DNA of 64,000 nucleotides. It comes from Pseudoalteromonas marina (GTDB lineage Bacteria > Pseudomonadota > Gammaproteobacteria > Enterobacterales > Alteromonadaceae). Below, piece after piece: positions 1,236 to 57,605 of the stretch (position 1 is its first letter; every line of letters starts with the position of its first letter). The DNA lies in NCBI RefSeq assembly GCF_000238335.3, contig NZ_AHCB03000005.1:1488001-1552000 (forward strand), read 5' to 3'. Position numbers and translations under genes: made by a program. Under the pieces are notes generated by a model, which was not told where the DNA came from, made no database searches, and saw nothing but the letters and a program-made list of their open reading frames with translations.

Positions 1236-2117
1236 ATGCAAACTCCTATTCGTGGTCTTCGTTCTTTTTGCTTTGCAGCAAGAAGCCTAAGTTTTAAGCA
1301 TGCAGCCAATGAGCTGTACTTAACACCGTCGGCGGTAAGCCACCAAATAAAACAACTAGAAGAACAACTTGGTATAGAGCTTTTTCATCGTAAAACACGT
1401 TCGATTAGCCTAACTACGGCTGGAAAAAACTTTTTTGATGCGATCTCCCCTATCATTACTATGTTAGAAGGTACCATTAATGAGTTTAGTCAATTACAAC
1501 AAAACACAAATATCACGATTACTTTACCCGAGTTTTTTGCCAGTGAATTGCTGATGCCGAAATTAAGCGAATGGACCACTCAGCATCCTAATATTAATTT
1601 GCAAATGGACACGCTTAAAACACGTAAAGAACTTACCCGCCATAGTGATTTGTCTATTGTGCTTTCGTCAAGTAAGCCAACTGAGGGCGCAGTCACTGAG
1701 CTATTTAATTTAGAATACATTCCTGCATGTAATAAAAAATTACTTGAACAGTGGAAAAACAACGATTTACAAGCACTGAACCAAGTACCACTAATTTTAC
1801 ACAAAGCACGCCCTTGGGCATGGCACCAGTGGGCTGAAAAAGTGGGCATAGATGATTTTTCGCCTACGCAAATTATTCAGATAGATAGTATGTTTGGTGT
1901 TGCACGTGCCGCACAGCAAGGTATGGGGATTGCACTTATTCCTCTACCTATAAGCCAAAGCTGGTTAGACGAGCAATGGTTATATAAATTGTTTGAACAG
2001 CCATTAACGACTAAAGATAAATATTATTTGGTTCAACACGACTCAAATGTAGCCAACCACCCTCTAGATCTGTTTGCTAAATGGGTAGTTGATACTTTTA
2101 GAAAAACCCAAGAATAA
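1236..2117 (+). CDS. LysR-family transcriptional regulator
   Basis: A 293-residue protein of normal LysR length. The N-terminal winged helix-turn-helix (about residues 5-65) reads FCFAARSLSFKHAANELYLTPSAVSHQIKQLEEQLG, the GcvA/AmpR-like form of the LysR signature. Residues about 90-290 form the periplasmic-binding-like effector domain. The start is the only ATG ahead of the HTH. The gene stands alone between two terminators, so its target is not clear from context. The scoAB operon upstream on the same strand is one possibility, but LysR regulators more often act on divergent genes and none is present here. The effector is unknown. Confidence 0.9.
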   Translation: MQTPIRGLRSFCFAARSLSFKHAANELYLTPSAVSHQIKQLEEQLGIELFHRKTRSISLTTAGKNFFDAISPIITMLEGTINEFSQLQQNTNITITLPEFFASELLMPKLSEWTTQHPNINLQMDTLKTRKELTRHSDLSIVLSSSKPTEGAVTELFNLEYIPACNKKLLEQWKNNDLQALNQVPLILHKARPWAWHQWAEKVGIDDFSPTQIIQIDSMFGVARAAQQGMGIALIPLPISQSWLDEQWLYKLFEQPLTTKDKYYLVQHDSNVANHPLDLFAKWVVDTFRKTQE

Positions 2118-2185: not shown

Positions 2186-2224
2186 TAAAAGCCAACTTAT
2201 TATCAATGAGTTGGCTTTTTTGTT
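2186..2224 (+). terminator. intrinsic terminator after the LysR gene
   Basis: AAAAGCCAACT and AGTTGGCTTTT pair around an 11-base loop and a T-run follows. The flanking A and T runs would let it work in both directions. Confidence 0.8.
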
Positions 2225-2402
2225 ATTTAATTTTTATGGTTTAAATTTTTTCACTTATCAGTTTTATTTTTATCGTTTGTTTGTATTTAGGAAACAACAT
2301 AAAGTCTATTTAACGAAAACATTTAATAACTAGATGAGTTGTTATTTAAATAACTAAGTTTGAAACCAATTTAGTTTTTATGACTCAAATAAATGTAAAA
2401 AA

Positions 2403-3013
2403 GAATCTTTATATTGTGTGTGAAGATGTTGTCAGTGTGAAAAACAGTTCAAGTTAGGTGGTGACTTAGTTTGGGCTGTTTTTATTCTCTCCAGCAGCCA
2501 CATAATATTAAAATCTGCTTTTAGCAGTAAACGAATCTTTATTGTGTGTGAAGATGTTGTCAGTGTGAAAAGCAGTTCAAGTTAGGTGGTGACTTAGTTT
2601 GGGCTGTTTTTATTCTCTCCAACAGCCACATAATATTAAAATCTGCTTTTGGCAGTAAATGAATCTTTATTGTGTGTGAAGATGTTGTCAGTGTGAAAAG
2701 CAGTTCAAATTAGGTGGTGACTTAGTTTGGGCTGTTTTTATTCTCTCCAACGGCCACATAATATAAAAATCTGCTTTTGGCAGTAAACGAATCTTTATTG
2801 TGTGTGAAGATGTTGTCAGTTTGAAAAGCAGTTCAAGTTAGGTGGTGACTTAGTTTGGGCTGTTTTTATTTTTCAACAAAAGTGAATAATATTAAAATCT
2901 GCTTTTGGCAGTAAATGAATCTTTATTGTGTGTGAAGATGTTGTCAGTTTGAAAAGCAGTTCAAGTTAGGTGGTGACTTAGTTTGGGCTGTTTTTATTTT
3001 TCAACAAAAGTGA
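2403..3013 (+). repeat. five tandem ~128-bp non-coding repeats
   Basis: Copies begin with GAATCTTTAT at 2403, 2533, 2661, 2789 and 2917. Spacing is 130 for the first copy, which has two extra bases (AT), then 128, 128 and 128. The fifth copy is cut after about 97 bases. Copies are over 90% alike by eye. The unit is not a multiple of three and has no open frame, so it does not encode a repeat protein. Each copy holds a 44-base segment that folds into a long hairpin (2440-2483, 2568-2611, 2696-2739, 2824-2867, 2952-2995). Copies 4 and 5 share a changed segment after the hairpin (TTTTCAACAAAAGTGA in place of CTCTCCAACAGCCACA) and a T for G just before it. The array lies between the LysR terminator and a terminator at 3034-3061. 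Confidence 0.97.
2440..2995 (+). ncRNA. candidate tandem structured RNAs: five copies of a 20-bp hairpin
   Basis: Within each repeat, 20 bases starting AAAAGCAGTTC pair without mismatch to 20 bases ending GGGCTGTTTTT around a GGTG tetraloop. Six pairs are G-U in the consensus, which is allowed only in plus-strand RNA; the complementary RNA would have A-C mismatches. The first copy has A for G at stem position 5 and the third has A for G at position 14, and both changes turn a G-U pair into A-U. The 3' arm ends in five T followed by ATT, like an intrinsic terminator. I found no convincing sigma-70 promoter in the unit, so transcription is inferred, not shown. Confidence 0.4.
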
Positions 3014-3033
3014 ACCACTTAGTAAATATTTAT

Positions 3034-3061
3034 AAAGCCCTCAATTAATGAGGGCTTTTTT
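3034..3061 (-). terminator. intrinsic terminator, probably of the msrAB gene
   Basis: AAAGCCCTC and GAGGGCTTT pair around a 7-base loop. The A and T runs on both sides suit termination of msrAB on the minus strand and of any transcript from the repeat array on the plus strand. Confidence 0.8.
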
Positions 3062-3120
3062 GTACTTGTTTCTTTACTAGTCGAAACACCAATTGTAGAC
3101 CGATAGGTTTATATGCGGTA

Positions 3121-4410
3121 TTAGCTATTATCTCGAGGGACAAAGTCTAATACGGTTGCGTTTATACAATATCTATCTTTTCCTCTAGGCCCCTCACCCG
3201 GAAATAAATGCCCCAGGTGAATACCTGTGCTTTTAGACCTTAATTCTATGCGTTGCATGCCCCAACTATTGTCCTCGTGTTCGGTTACACTGTTTTTAAC
3301 AGGGTGCGTAAACGACAGCCAACCTGTACCAGAATTAAAACGATCTCGAGTGTCAAATAAAGCCTCACCACTGAGCTTATCGACAAAGGTGCCATCGGGT
3401 GTGTTTTTAAATATTTTATATTCTTTACAATATGGGCGATCTGTTTTTGCATTAAATGCAACTTTATAAGCTTCACTATCTCCTAATTTAAATGCACCTA
3501 ATGCTTTGTAAAACGTCTCACGGCTTGCGTAGCCTTGGCGACCATATACTTCTTCACCATTTTCTAAAAATAGAATTGTGGGTGTTGCCCATGTCGCTGA
3601 TTTAATGGTTAACCCATCTAATTGATCTGCGTATCTAAATGACAAAGGGATGGTGCCTTTGTAGTCATTTGCCACCTCTTTTTTAAACTTCTCGCAGTAA
3701 GGGCAATAGTCTCGAGAGTCTATTATCACTATTTGTTTACCCACTAATAATGCAGTGTTGTCTTTCGTTTTAACTGGTACTGGTTCGAAAACCACACCAG
3801 TAGAATGATCAGGGCAATAACCATTAGGATTTTTTTGCAAATAATTTTGGTGGTATTCTTCAGCTGCTACAAAGCCCTCAAGTGGCTTGATAACGGTGAC
3901 TATATTTCCATACCCAGCATTGGTTAATAATTGTTGGTATTGCGCTTTAACCTTTAACGCTGTGTCTTTTTGCGCATCGTTGCTCGTTAATATAATAGAT
4001 CGATATTGCGTACCAATGTCATTACCTTGTTTGTTTAACTGAGTAGGGTCGTGACTTTCAAAGTAATTTTTAAGTAACTCTTGCGCAGAAATAATATTGC
4101 TGTTGTAAGTCACTTTCACTACTTCAGCGAAATTGTTTTCGTCAAAGCGGCGTGATTGCTTAGTAATATTTTTGTAAGTAGCCTCAAACCCATTGCCATC
4201 TGCATAACCAGATTCTGCATCAATTACTCCATCTAGCGCTTCATAGCGTTTTTCTGCGCCCCAAAAACACCCCGATCCTAGTACAAGGCTTTCTACATGC
4301 ATACTGGCTGCTACATCGCTTTGTTCGACCTTTTCCATCGATAAAGCAAACGCGCCTGCGCTAAATATAATTGCAGCGCCCGATAAATATAATAAATGCT
4401 GATAATTCAT
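3121..4410 (-). CDS. msrAB: periplasmic methionine sulfoxide reductase fusion, MsrA-thioredoxin-MsrB
   Basis: A 429-residue protein. An N-terminal hydrophobic stretch (residues 6-23) looks like a signal peptide or anchor. MsrA spans about 40-205, with GCFWG at 47-51 (catalytic Cys48) and a likely resolving Cys199 in NGYCPD. A thioredoxin-like domain spans about 215-308 with CPYC at 236-239. MsrB spans about 312-426 with SGTGWLSF, HLGHLFPGEGP and RYCIN (catalytic Cys415). The CxxC zinc motifs of many MsrB proteins are absent; Cys328 in DRPYC may resolve Cys415. The protein would repair both S- and R-methionine sulfoxide in exported proteins, the middle domain passing electrons on. Neisseria PilB has the order thioredoxin-MsrA-MsrB, whereas here the thioredoxin domain is central. 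It stands alone, and GAGG sits 7 bases before the ATG. Confidence 0.92.
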   Translation of the reverse strand: MNYQHLLYLSGAAIIFSAGAFALSMEKVEQSDVAASMHVESLVLGSGCFWGAEKRYEALDGVIDAESGYADGNGFEATYKNITKQSRRFDENNFAEVVKVTYNSNIISAQELLKNYFESHDPTQLNKQGNDIGTQYRSIILTSNDAQKDTALKVKAQYQQLLTNAGYGNIVTVIKPLEGFVAAEEYHQNYLQKNPNGYCPDHSTGVVFEPVPVKTKDNTALLVGKQIVIIDSRDYCPYCEKFKKEVANDYKGTIPLSFRYADQLDGLTIKSATWATPTILFLENGEEVYGRQGYASRETFYKALGAFKLGDSEAYKVAFNAKTDRPYCKEYKIFKNTPDGTFVDKLSGEALFDTRDRFNSGTGWLSFTHPVKNSVTEHEDNSWGMQRIELRSKSTGIHLGHLFPGEGPRGKDRYCINATVLDFVPRDNS

Positions 4411-41701: not shown

Positions 41702-41743
41702 TTGGCGTTTGGCGTTTGGCGTTTGGCGTTTGGCGTTTGGCGT
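41702..41743. repeat. microsatellite, 7-bp unit x 6
   Basis: Six perfect copies of TTGGCGT, between the terminators of two convergent genes. No coding sequence is affected. Confidence 0.98.
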
Positions 41744-41807
41744 TAATCATTTTAAAAGTGACTGTTCGTATTGCCTGACAATAATTAAAGGTAATTTTTA
41801 ATAGGCA

Positions 41808-55863: not shown

Positions 55864-55927
55864 CGTTGATACGTTGATACGTTGATACGTTGATACGTTG
55901 ATACGTTGATACGTTGATACGTTGATA
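55864..55927. repeat. microsatellite, 8-bp unit x 8
   Basis: Eight perfect copies of CGTTGATA. They lie between the SulP stop codon and its terminator, so they are transcribed as TATCAACG in the 3' untranslated end. Confidence 0.98.
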
Positions 55928-55935
55928 GTTAGTAT

Positions 55936-57492
55936 TTAAGCTAGCTTATCTGACGCAACTTTATAAGTAGGATCTTCTATTACATTGACCTCAACTAAAT
56001 CACGCGCTTTGTGCAGTAACTGAGTACAGTCTTTACTTAAATGACGCAAATGAAGCTGTTTACCTGCTTTAGTATATTTATCAGCTAATGCGTCAATAGC
56101 CTCTATTGCACTGTGATCTGATACACGGCTATGTTTAAACTCTACAATAACGTTCTCTGGGTCATTTTTAACATCAAATAATTCAGAAAAGTTTTTAACT
56201 GAACCAAAAAATAATGGCCCATGTAACTCATATACTTTTGAGCCTTCTTCATCAATGTAGTTAGTTGTGTAAATATGCTTAGCATGTTGCCATGCAAAAA
56301 CAAGTGCAGACACAATTACACCTACACACACTGCAATCGCTAAATCGGTAATCACCGTTACACCTGAAACCAACACGATTACAAAGGCATCTGACAATGG
56401 AACGCGCTTCATCATTTTAAAACTTGCCCATTCAAATGTACCAAGCACAACCATAAACATAACCCCAACAAGTGCGGCAAGTGGGATCATTTCAATTAAA
56501 CTTGAGGCAAAAATGATAAATGCAAGCAACATTAGTGCTGCACTGATACCTGATAAACGTGAACGACCGCCAGAATTAATATTAATCATTGATTGGCCAA
56601 TCATTGCACAACCACCCATTGCACCAAAAAAGCCACACGTTATATTTGCAGCGCCTTGGCCAATACACTCTTTGTTACTGTGACCACGGGTTTCAGTAAT
56701 TTCATCAATTAAGCTAAGCGTTAATAATGACTCTATCAGGCCGATAGCAGCAAGTATCAGTGCATAAGGGAAGATAATTTGCAGCGTATCTAAATTAAAT
56801 GGCACCATAGGAATATGGAACTCTGGCAACCCACCTGCGATTGTTGCCGCTTCGTCACCTGTCATCCCTTTTAAAAAATCTAATACGGTATGTGCTTCAA
56901 GGTCTAAACCAATCACTAAGCCAGTTACCGTTACAATCGCAACCAAAGACGAAGGAATAGCCGTTGTTAACTTAGGAAGGAAATGAATAATTCCCATAGT
57001 TAGCGCAACCAGCCCTAGCATAATAAACAATGGTTCACCCGTCATCCATTGCTGACCGCCCATACCGTCAGGTACTTTAAACTGACCTAACTGGGCTAAA
57101 AATATAACAATAGCTAAGCCGTTTACAAACCCTAGCATTACAGGATGTGGTACCATTCGAATAAACTTACCGAGCTTGAATATTCCCGCGAGTATTTGCA
57201 AAATACCCATCAACAGCACGGTTGCAAAGAGATACTCAACACCATGATCAAGTACTAAACTTACCATAACAACCGCTAAAGCACCGGTAGCACCTGAAAT
57301 CATACCAGGGCGGCCGCCAAATATAGCCGTAATTAAACCTACGATAAACGCGGCATATAGACCAACTAAAGGTTCTACATTTGCTACAAAGGCAAACGCA
57401 ACAGCTTCTGGCACTAAGGCTAACGCCACAGTTAAACCAGATAGAATATCGTTTTTAGCAGAGCTTGGCGCCCTACTGAGTAAGTTAAACAT
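55936..57492 (-). CDS. SulP-family inorganic anion transporter with STAS domain
   Basis: A 518-residue protein. The ATG at 57492 gives [37 protein letters not shown] and is preceded by GAGG; the frame upstream to 57555 covers a terminator and is rejected. The transmembrane part (about 20-400) has 12 or more helices, and the cytoplasmic STAS domain (about 425-515) has [23 protein letters not shown]. SulP members carry sulfate, bicarbonate or dicarboxylates; the substrate cannot be fixed here, and a BicA-like bicarbonate carrier is possible. It is a single gene downstream of an Lrp regulator. Confidence 0.92.
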
Positions 57493-57515
57493 TGAGATCC
57501 TCAGGTGTATTTTGG

Positions 57516-57553
57516 GTATAAAAAAAGCGCTAAATTCTAGCAAATTAGCGCTC
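57516..57553 (-). terminator. intrinsic terminator of the Lrp gene, overlapping a possible SulP promoter
   Basis: AGCGCTAA and TTAGCGCT pair around about 11 bases, and on the minus strand seven T follow. In the same stretch TTGCTA and TATACC are 17 bases apart and could be the SulP promoter. Confidence 0.75.
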
Positions 57554-57605
57554 ATTTAACAATTACATTGTCTTTTAAACTAAATAGCTCTATAAAGTTA
57601 TCCGT

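Follow-up and report, generated by a model that had tools for sequence, protein, structure and literature searches.

A tandem array in Pseudoalteromonas marina consists of putative noncoding RNA units in an arrangement of a known kind, with a promoter common to it and a family of small exported proteins, and at a site which those proteins' genes hold elsewhere. It is a conserved RNA family, seen in one Pseudoalteromonas clade only. The array lies in a 64,000-nucleotide stretch of contig NZ_AHCB03000005.1 (assembly GCF_000238335.3, positions 1,488,001 to 1,552,000, forward strand), which we refer to as the window and whose numbering is used in Table 1 and for all positions without a contig name.

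The first-pass annotation of this DNA described five units of ~128 bp, each with a 20-bp stem around a GGUG loop, and both the sequence and Tandem Repeats Finder bear this out, the latter reporting a repeat at 2399-2998 of the window with a period of 128, 4.7 copies and 94% matches. As delimited here, the array spans 2402 to ~3020, with a unit 1 of 130 bp followed by units 2, 3 and 4 of 128 bp each. Six G-U pairs are seen in the stems of units 2, 4 and 5, and the two stem substitutions on record (unit 1 position 5 and unit 3 position 14) convert G-U to A-U and keep the pairing. The array structure is a property of the plus-strand RNA, as had been proposed, because fold z-scores are low on the plus strand (−3.3 to −4.1 in five of five units) and not on the minus strand (−0.1 to −1.2 in the three units folded). 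The units were judged by eye to be noncoding, and a second array of the same unit type is present in the same genome (locus L009). The window holds two further perfect tandem repeats: (TTGGCGT)x6 at 41702-41744, between genes that resemble a TonB-dependent receptor and an FKBP (named from sequence), and (CGTTGATA)x8 at 55864-55927, a possible variable-number repeat flanked by a terminator-like hairpin and by the end of a gene for a SulP-like transporter (minus strand, 55936-57555).

Table 1 The array and its flanking features, in window coordinates
Feature	Position	Strand	Details
LysR-type regulator gene, upstream neighbour	1236..2117	+	Pfam HTH_1 2.5e-21, LysR_substrate 2.1e-20
Terminator-like hairpin between LysR gene and array	2187..2219	+	Consensus scan
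Conserved upstream promoter element, common to TPR-like genes	2246..2280	+	Aligned in 41 arrays
Promoter core	2277..2305	+	TTGTTT 2277-2282, 17-bp spacer, TAAAGT 2300-2305
Unit 1	2402..2531	+	P3 hairpin 2440-2483
Unit 1, SL1	2405-2427	+	
Unit 1, P1	2411-2420 with 2499-2508	+	
Unit 1, invariant GUUGUC	2428-2433	+	
Unit 2	2532..2659	+	P3 hairpin 2568-2611
Unit 3	2660..2787	+	P3 hairpin 2696-2739
Unit 4	2788..2915	+	P3 hairpin 2824-2867
Unit 5 (last)	2916..3020	+	P3 hairpin 2952-2995
Terminator-like hairpin 3′ of array	3034..3058	+	Consensus scan; would end the transcription unit
msrAB (peptide methionine sulfoxide reductase), convergent neighbour	3121..4410	-	Pfam PMSR, SelR; synteny

Across genomes we collected 46 array loci with 144 delimited units, 112 of them distinct, leaving out five units without a recognised end; 49 of the 112 distinct core units were aligned, whilst the extended internal units numbered 105, with two set aside, and included 94 distinct sequences of which 70 were aligned. 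The most invariant part of the unit in these alignments is a 5′ segment, UGUGUGUG-AAGAUGUUGUC, and not P3, the long hairpin whose end reads UUUUUAUU and which is variable in sequence with preserved pairing. The 5′ end forms a hairpin, SL1, of the type AUCUU(U/A).. loop ..AAGAU, with a stem of varying length and arms that co-vary (AUCUUA...UAAGAU, AUCUUUA...UAAAGAU). Internal units possess in addition a closing helix, P1, between the SL1 loop segment and a 3′ box (CCACGCA.. and variants), the 5′ strand being invariant (UUGUGUG) and the 3′ box variable; P1 and SL1 are mutually exclusive. The presence of this closing helix makes the unit larger than first described.

The outcome that would have counted against the first-pass reading, stem changes disrupting pairing no less often than preserving it, was not seen. 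In the 70 distinct internal units aligned, pairing is kept by 97.0% of P3 cells, and both sides have changed in 7 of the 19 P3 pairs; the inner seven pairs of P1 are 98.2% paired, all seven varying on the 3′ side only, and its outer three pairs are 72.4% paired. The whole structure beats 500 of 500 shuffles in cells paired, in cells changed on both sides and in covariation score (0.314 vs. 0.253 ± 0.005 for shuffles, with no value above 0.119 when slid). Pairs with both-side changes number 8 vs. 5.9 in shuffles, a value reached by 9 of 500, whilst for further pair types there is no excess, the value being reached by 337 of 500 shuffles. Almost all internal units (102 of 105) have a P1 of −7 kcal/mol or lower, vs. 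14 of 39 last units, in which it is no commoner than in shuffled spacers (31%); in the window, unit 5 is without a strong P1 partner (−6.5 kcal/mol), and P1 is weakened in unit 4, where the stretch directly 3′ of P3 is the same as in unit 5. The minimum-energy fold comprises P1 and P3 in nine of ten representative units; internal units and last units show no difference in the stability of P3. In a loop-swap test, the unit's own 3′ box was the best partner for three units with the variant loop UAAAUGUG, the test being uninformative for the other loop types, in which loops differ little. A stretch able to pair with GUUGUC at 5 or 6 of 6 positions is present in 106 of 106 scored units (four of the 112 distinct core units had no scored motif and two had no GUUGUC); this P2, between GUUGUC and the 5′ arm of P3, was considered as a third conserved helix and dropped, because P3 compensation through G-U preserves it automatically. 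We also observed that in the last unit of L009 GAUGUUGUC is replaced by GAUAUUAUU and the hairpin is an unrelated one, with a similar unit at locus L040.

No known RNA family was recognised in the array, in keeping with the first-pass annotation, which could place it in no family. In Rfam 15 the whole window yielded a tRNA only at gathering score, with nothing over the array, and in E-value mode the region 2200-3100 gave 19 matches, all below gathering score. A CRISPR array was rejected, as whole units recur within the array, spacers included, vs. the unique spacers of CRISPR. Integron attC sites have core sites in which RYYYAAC pairs with GTTRRRY, and no such pair 40-140 bp apart occurs in 2312-3060. 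Type III toxin-antitoxin loci encode ToxI, an RNA of tandem structured repeats followed by a terminator, next to a ToxN-like gene; no toxin-like gene was recognised by eye among the neighbouring ORFs, which downstream comprise msrAB (Pfam-tested) and, by eye, a binding-protein-like gene, hypothetical ORFs and cyo-like genes. The Csr sponges of the same genus share with the array a repeated element in one noncoding transcript, and in P. fuliginea the CsrB/RsmZ-type RNAs Pf1, Pf2 and Pf3 are given 25, 21 and 9 GGA motifs in the available portions of two reports (PMC11882849; PMC9927453). A sponge of this type, which would carry many GGA motifs in its hairpin loops, was rejected here, with no GGA in the predicted 749-nt window transcript (2312-3060) and 28 in the 17,013 bases of the 46 array loci (0.16 per 100 nt). 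No description of these arrays was found in the literature within reach, most subscription journals and all supplements lying beyond it; tandem repeats are mentioned for strain TAC125 as an assembly matter in the accessible part of one paper (PMC6848147).

A BLAST search with the 81-nt core found the array family in 32 of 108 genomes of the genus. The loci contain one to six units, single-unit arrays included, and these copy numbers are minima because some of the 46 loci are pieces of arrays broken at contig edges. The covariance model (R1, E 0.1) found 36 of 108, the four genomes beyond those of BLAST having single weak matches, and in an order-wide draw it matched 5 of 246 other genomes with one weak match each. 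An exact pattern occurred in 37 stretches of the genome contigs, 35 from Pseudoalteromonas and two from unrelated MAGs, which we take as chance matches, whilst phage and plasmid records held no match to the array unit. One viral contig (L199) matches the invariant pattern exactly at one place, probably also by chance. In a tree of one gene, asnB, from 48 near relatives and two outgroups, all 32 array genomes fall within one clade of 35 (support 96/96). The sister clade of 13 genomes carries no arrays, but possesses genes for what we refer to as TPR-like proteins, with the leader pattern of these genes recognised in 12 of the 13.

The link between the arrays and the TPR-like genes is their promoter. 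In 41 of 46 array loci a single promoter lies ahead of unit 1 (alignment, by eye), the upstream sequence of the remaining five being too short to align. The aligned promoters are ungapped and consist of a long T-rich element, TTGT, a 17-bp spacer and TAAAGT or a variant, from which a transcript would be expected to start near 2312. With up to three mismatches the promoter element has four sites in the window's own genome, and a shorter, looser pattern has five, vs. none for the reversed pattern in either case; a version with too strict a spacer gave no matches. In eight genomes searched, seven contained a total of 24 sites (reversed control, none), of which 7 precede arrays and 17 precede TPR-like genes, one of them truncated, so that the non-array sites lead into TPR-like genes only. 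The first-pass annotation took the repeats to be small RNA genes or terminator-like elements. Repeated sRNA-like units they are, but the full unit is larger, with the hairpin as its variable, terminator-like end, and one promoter ahead of unit 1 does not plainly make each unit a separate gene. At many array and TPR-like promoters (e.g. locus L224) a near-palindrome, TAGACTAAAGTCTA, a possible regulator site, lies upstream of the T-rich element; it is missing from the window's own array promoter.

The genes that follow the shared promoter encode exported proteins of ~135 amino acids (135-166) with weak, sub-threshold TPR matches only, hence the label, and in Pseudoalteromonas they are mostly annotated as hypothetical or orphan proteins. 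They are present in 32 of 32 array genomes, 30 identified by leader pattern and two by protein; the protein search covered 12 chosen genomes, and the distant genome G054 gave a weak match. The leader motif GGCAACA occurs in 30 genomes, all 30 with arrays, vs. GGCAAGA or GGCAATA in 12 sister-clade genomes, none with arrays, a contrast which amounts to one split on the tree. The leader pattern misses some copies: UGUCGGC leaders follow five sister-clade promoters, and GGCAACA is missing from the copies at locus A in two array genomes, G057 and G069. One copy in the window's own genome (L214, G000:C4, 1737821 and below, minus strand) has kept its promoter and leader and is missing the 5′ coding start.

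Arrays occur at several sites, chiefly at locus A (atoAD, lysR, array, msrAB), as in the window, and at locus B (nqr, apbE, array and often cyo). Here msrAB serves as a locus marker outside the array, and neighbouring genes other than lysR and msrAB were named from sequence. In the sister clade the distance between asnB and the recognised leader is 6.26-6.52 kb in 12 of 12 genomes, and in the four whose examined stretch reached lysR (G003, G004, G019 and G082) TPR-like genes lie between lysR and msrAB. G003 has two of them directly upstream of msrAB, the position of the array in the window, in a lysR-msrAB interval which is longer than that of the window and has other genes inside; by eye, the window's array promoter is similar to the G003 TPR-like promoter before msrAB. 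G057 and G069 have their array elsewhere and retain a TPR-like gene in the lysR-msrAB interval. The array therefore occupies the place of TPR-like genes at locus A, which it may plausibly have reached by recombination through the promoter common to both.

The array, the TPR-like genes and the LysR gene also go missing together. A full-length LysR is encoded at locus A in all 29 array genomes with the stretch covered (19 + 10), whilst G017, G048 and G064 fall outside the count owing to contig edges. Three members of the array clade have no array (G006, G035 and G101), at separate places in the tree, and in none of them was a TPR-like protein found at E 1e-5. At locus A, G101 retains LysR fragments only, a deletion remnant; G006 has ~200 bp between atoB and msrAB and no LysR at the site; and in G035 neither LysR nor atoB was found within 4.4 kb upstream of msrAB. 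The same 3 of 35 genomes would lose both independently with a chance of 1 in 6545, by an arithmetic that ignores the tree. As LysR is full-length in 29 of 29 array genomes and damaged or missing at the site in two of the three array-less ones, it is the best candidate regulator, likely an activator of the shared promoter beside which its gene lies, and the joint absence of arrays and TPR-like genes may be a consequence of losing this shared activator. Another candidate for the common regulator, a winged-helix protein encoded next to TPR-like genes in G003, was rejected, with no match in the window's own genome at E 1e-30.

Shared promoter, corresponding sister-clade site and joint absence would place array RNA and TPR-like genes in the same regulon. 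On this basis we propose, with a confidence that we would set at about even, that the array is a noncoding regulatory RNA, transcribed as multiple units within a LysR-linked regulon with the TPR-like genes, whose mRNAs it tunes in trans. The promoter core would direct a transcript of ~750 nt, comprising a leader and five structured units, with P3 as the terminator-like, presumably leaky, end of each unit. Internal units could close on themselves through P1, SL1 loop to 3′ box, to the exclusion of SL1, and partial termination together with cleavage would release RNAs bearing the invariant segment UGUGUGUGAAGAUGUUGUC. Under the likely activation by the adjacent LysR, these RNAs would be made alongside the small exported TPR-like proteins and could act on expression of their presumed target mRNAs, upwards or downwards, either through base pairing or by serving as a leader decoy.

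A simpler reading is that arrays and TPR-like genes share a regulator only and are otherwise functionally unrelated, the RNA having other targets. We regard this as a substantial possibility, though one that we would not favour. The shared promoter fits it, as does the state of LysR where arrays and TPR-like genes are both missing, and pairing with TPR-like leaders is unexceptional. We compared 16 TPR-like start regions, 12 of them from array genomes, with 49 control starts: the best pairing of a 12-nt probe on the invariant segment with leaders of array genomes is equalled by 8-18% of the control starts, that of longer probes by 10-76%, and a 7-bp match, UGUUGUC:GGCAACA, is possible in many TPR-like leaders with an energy within the control range. 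Near-perfect antisense targets in the window's own genome were rejected as well, ACAACATCTTCACA with up to two mismatches having 57 matches, array units included, vs. 51 for the reversed sequence. Yet the array sits at the sister-clade TPR-like site and one unit type is leader-like, which suggests, but does not prove, a closer link than co-regulation.

That leader-like unit type belongs to a second alternative, in which the array is a multi-copy decoy whose units mimic the TPR-like leader hairpin (GUUGUC-loop-GACGAC) and titrate the binding partner of the leader, for example an sRNA, an RNase or another protein. Two of nine comparisons made speak for this: a clade-C unit scores 35 against a TPR-like leader of the window's own genome and 32 against one of G057, values reached by 0 and 1 of 500 shuffles. 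The common promoter and corresponding site are in its favour, as is the stretch complementary to GUUGUC in all scored units, but wobble-mediated transitions alone can preserve that complementarity, which drops to 5 of 6 positions in 43 of 106 units. Units of the window's own genome are unconvincing against its own leader, the B type being matched by 5% of shuffles and the A type by 44%, and UGUCGGC leaders are present in the array-less sister clade too. We consider this reading improbable. Trans tuning of TPR-like mRNAs by a co-regulated RNA has a more specific version, which we put forward tentatively: in one Pseudoalteromonas clade the array may have captured the promoter of a TPR-like gene, one of those it would regulate, and its units may mimic or pair with the remaining TPR-like leaders. 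This would give a feed-forward control that is co-induced and set by gene dosage, and that would be lost with the protein family and LysR.

Still less probable to us is a separate sRNA gene in each unit, transcribed from near GUGAAGAUG behind an internal −10 (TATAAT, TATATT or TATAAA), SL1 and P1 then not being RNA features. A −10-like hexamer does occur at a constant place in many units, and there is precedent for sibling sRNAs in tandem (PMC4211561, in the part available). Against this, no matching −35 is evident in the spacers (by eye, unscored), units 2-5 of the window have TTTATT at the −10 place, the 3′ box preserves RNA pairing, G-U included, with the supposed −10 segment, and the SL1 arms co-vary. 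A mobile or selfish DNA repeat (MITE, REP-like or integron attC), or a functionless product of slippage, is very hard to credit: tandem homogenisation (mean identity at locus A of 0.959 within an array vs. 0.900 between arrays) would suit it, but not the fixed syntenic sites, the strand-specific pairing, the covariation, the one promoter and the retention of arrays in 32 of 35 clade genomes, nor do the array units have an attC-like core pair (by a simple pattern) or any counterpart in the phage and plasmid records.

As adjacent homologous, apparently noncoding units with a structure conserved across species, the arrays resemble tandem sibling sRNAs in general. LhrC genes occur in several tandem copies, each with its own promoter; the array has related sRNA-like units in common with them, but a single promoter. 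LhrC1-5 of Listeria monocytogenes are presented as five related sRNAs of one family (PMC5880928, as far as the accessible text goes). The closest arrangement, also of adjacent related sRNA units, is PrrF1-PrrF2 of Pseudomonas aeruginosa, where transcription from the prrF1 start past an intrinsic terminator gives a longer RNA, PrrH, which includes the spacer, according to the available sections of the same source as above (PMC4211561). The likeness is one of arrangement, and unlike PrrF the arrays have up to six units, one conserved promoter which is common to a protein family, and P1 in their internal units.

Gene editing has been reported for laboratory strains of Pseudoalteromonas, in the accessible part of that work (PMC12628799). 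The array would belong to an undescribed RNA family whose origin can be traced, a regulatory RNA behind a protein family's promoter, and 108 genomes can be read for the copy number, structure and joint absence of such arrays. It raises the question of whether an RNA may originate by taking over the promoter of its own target.
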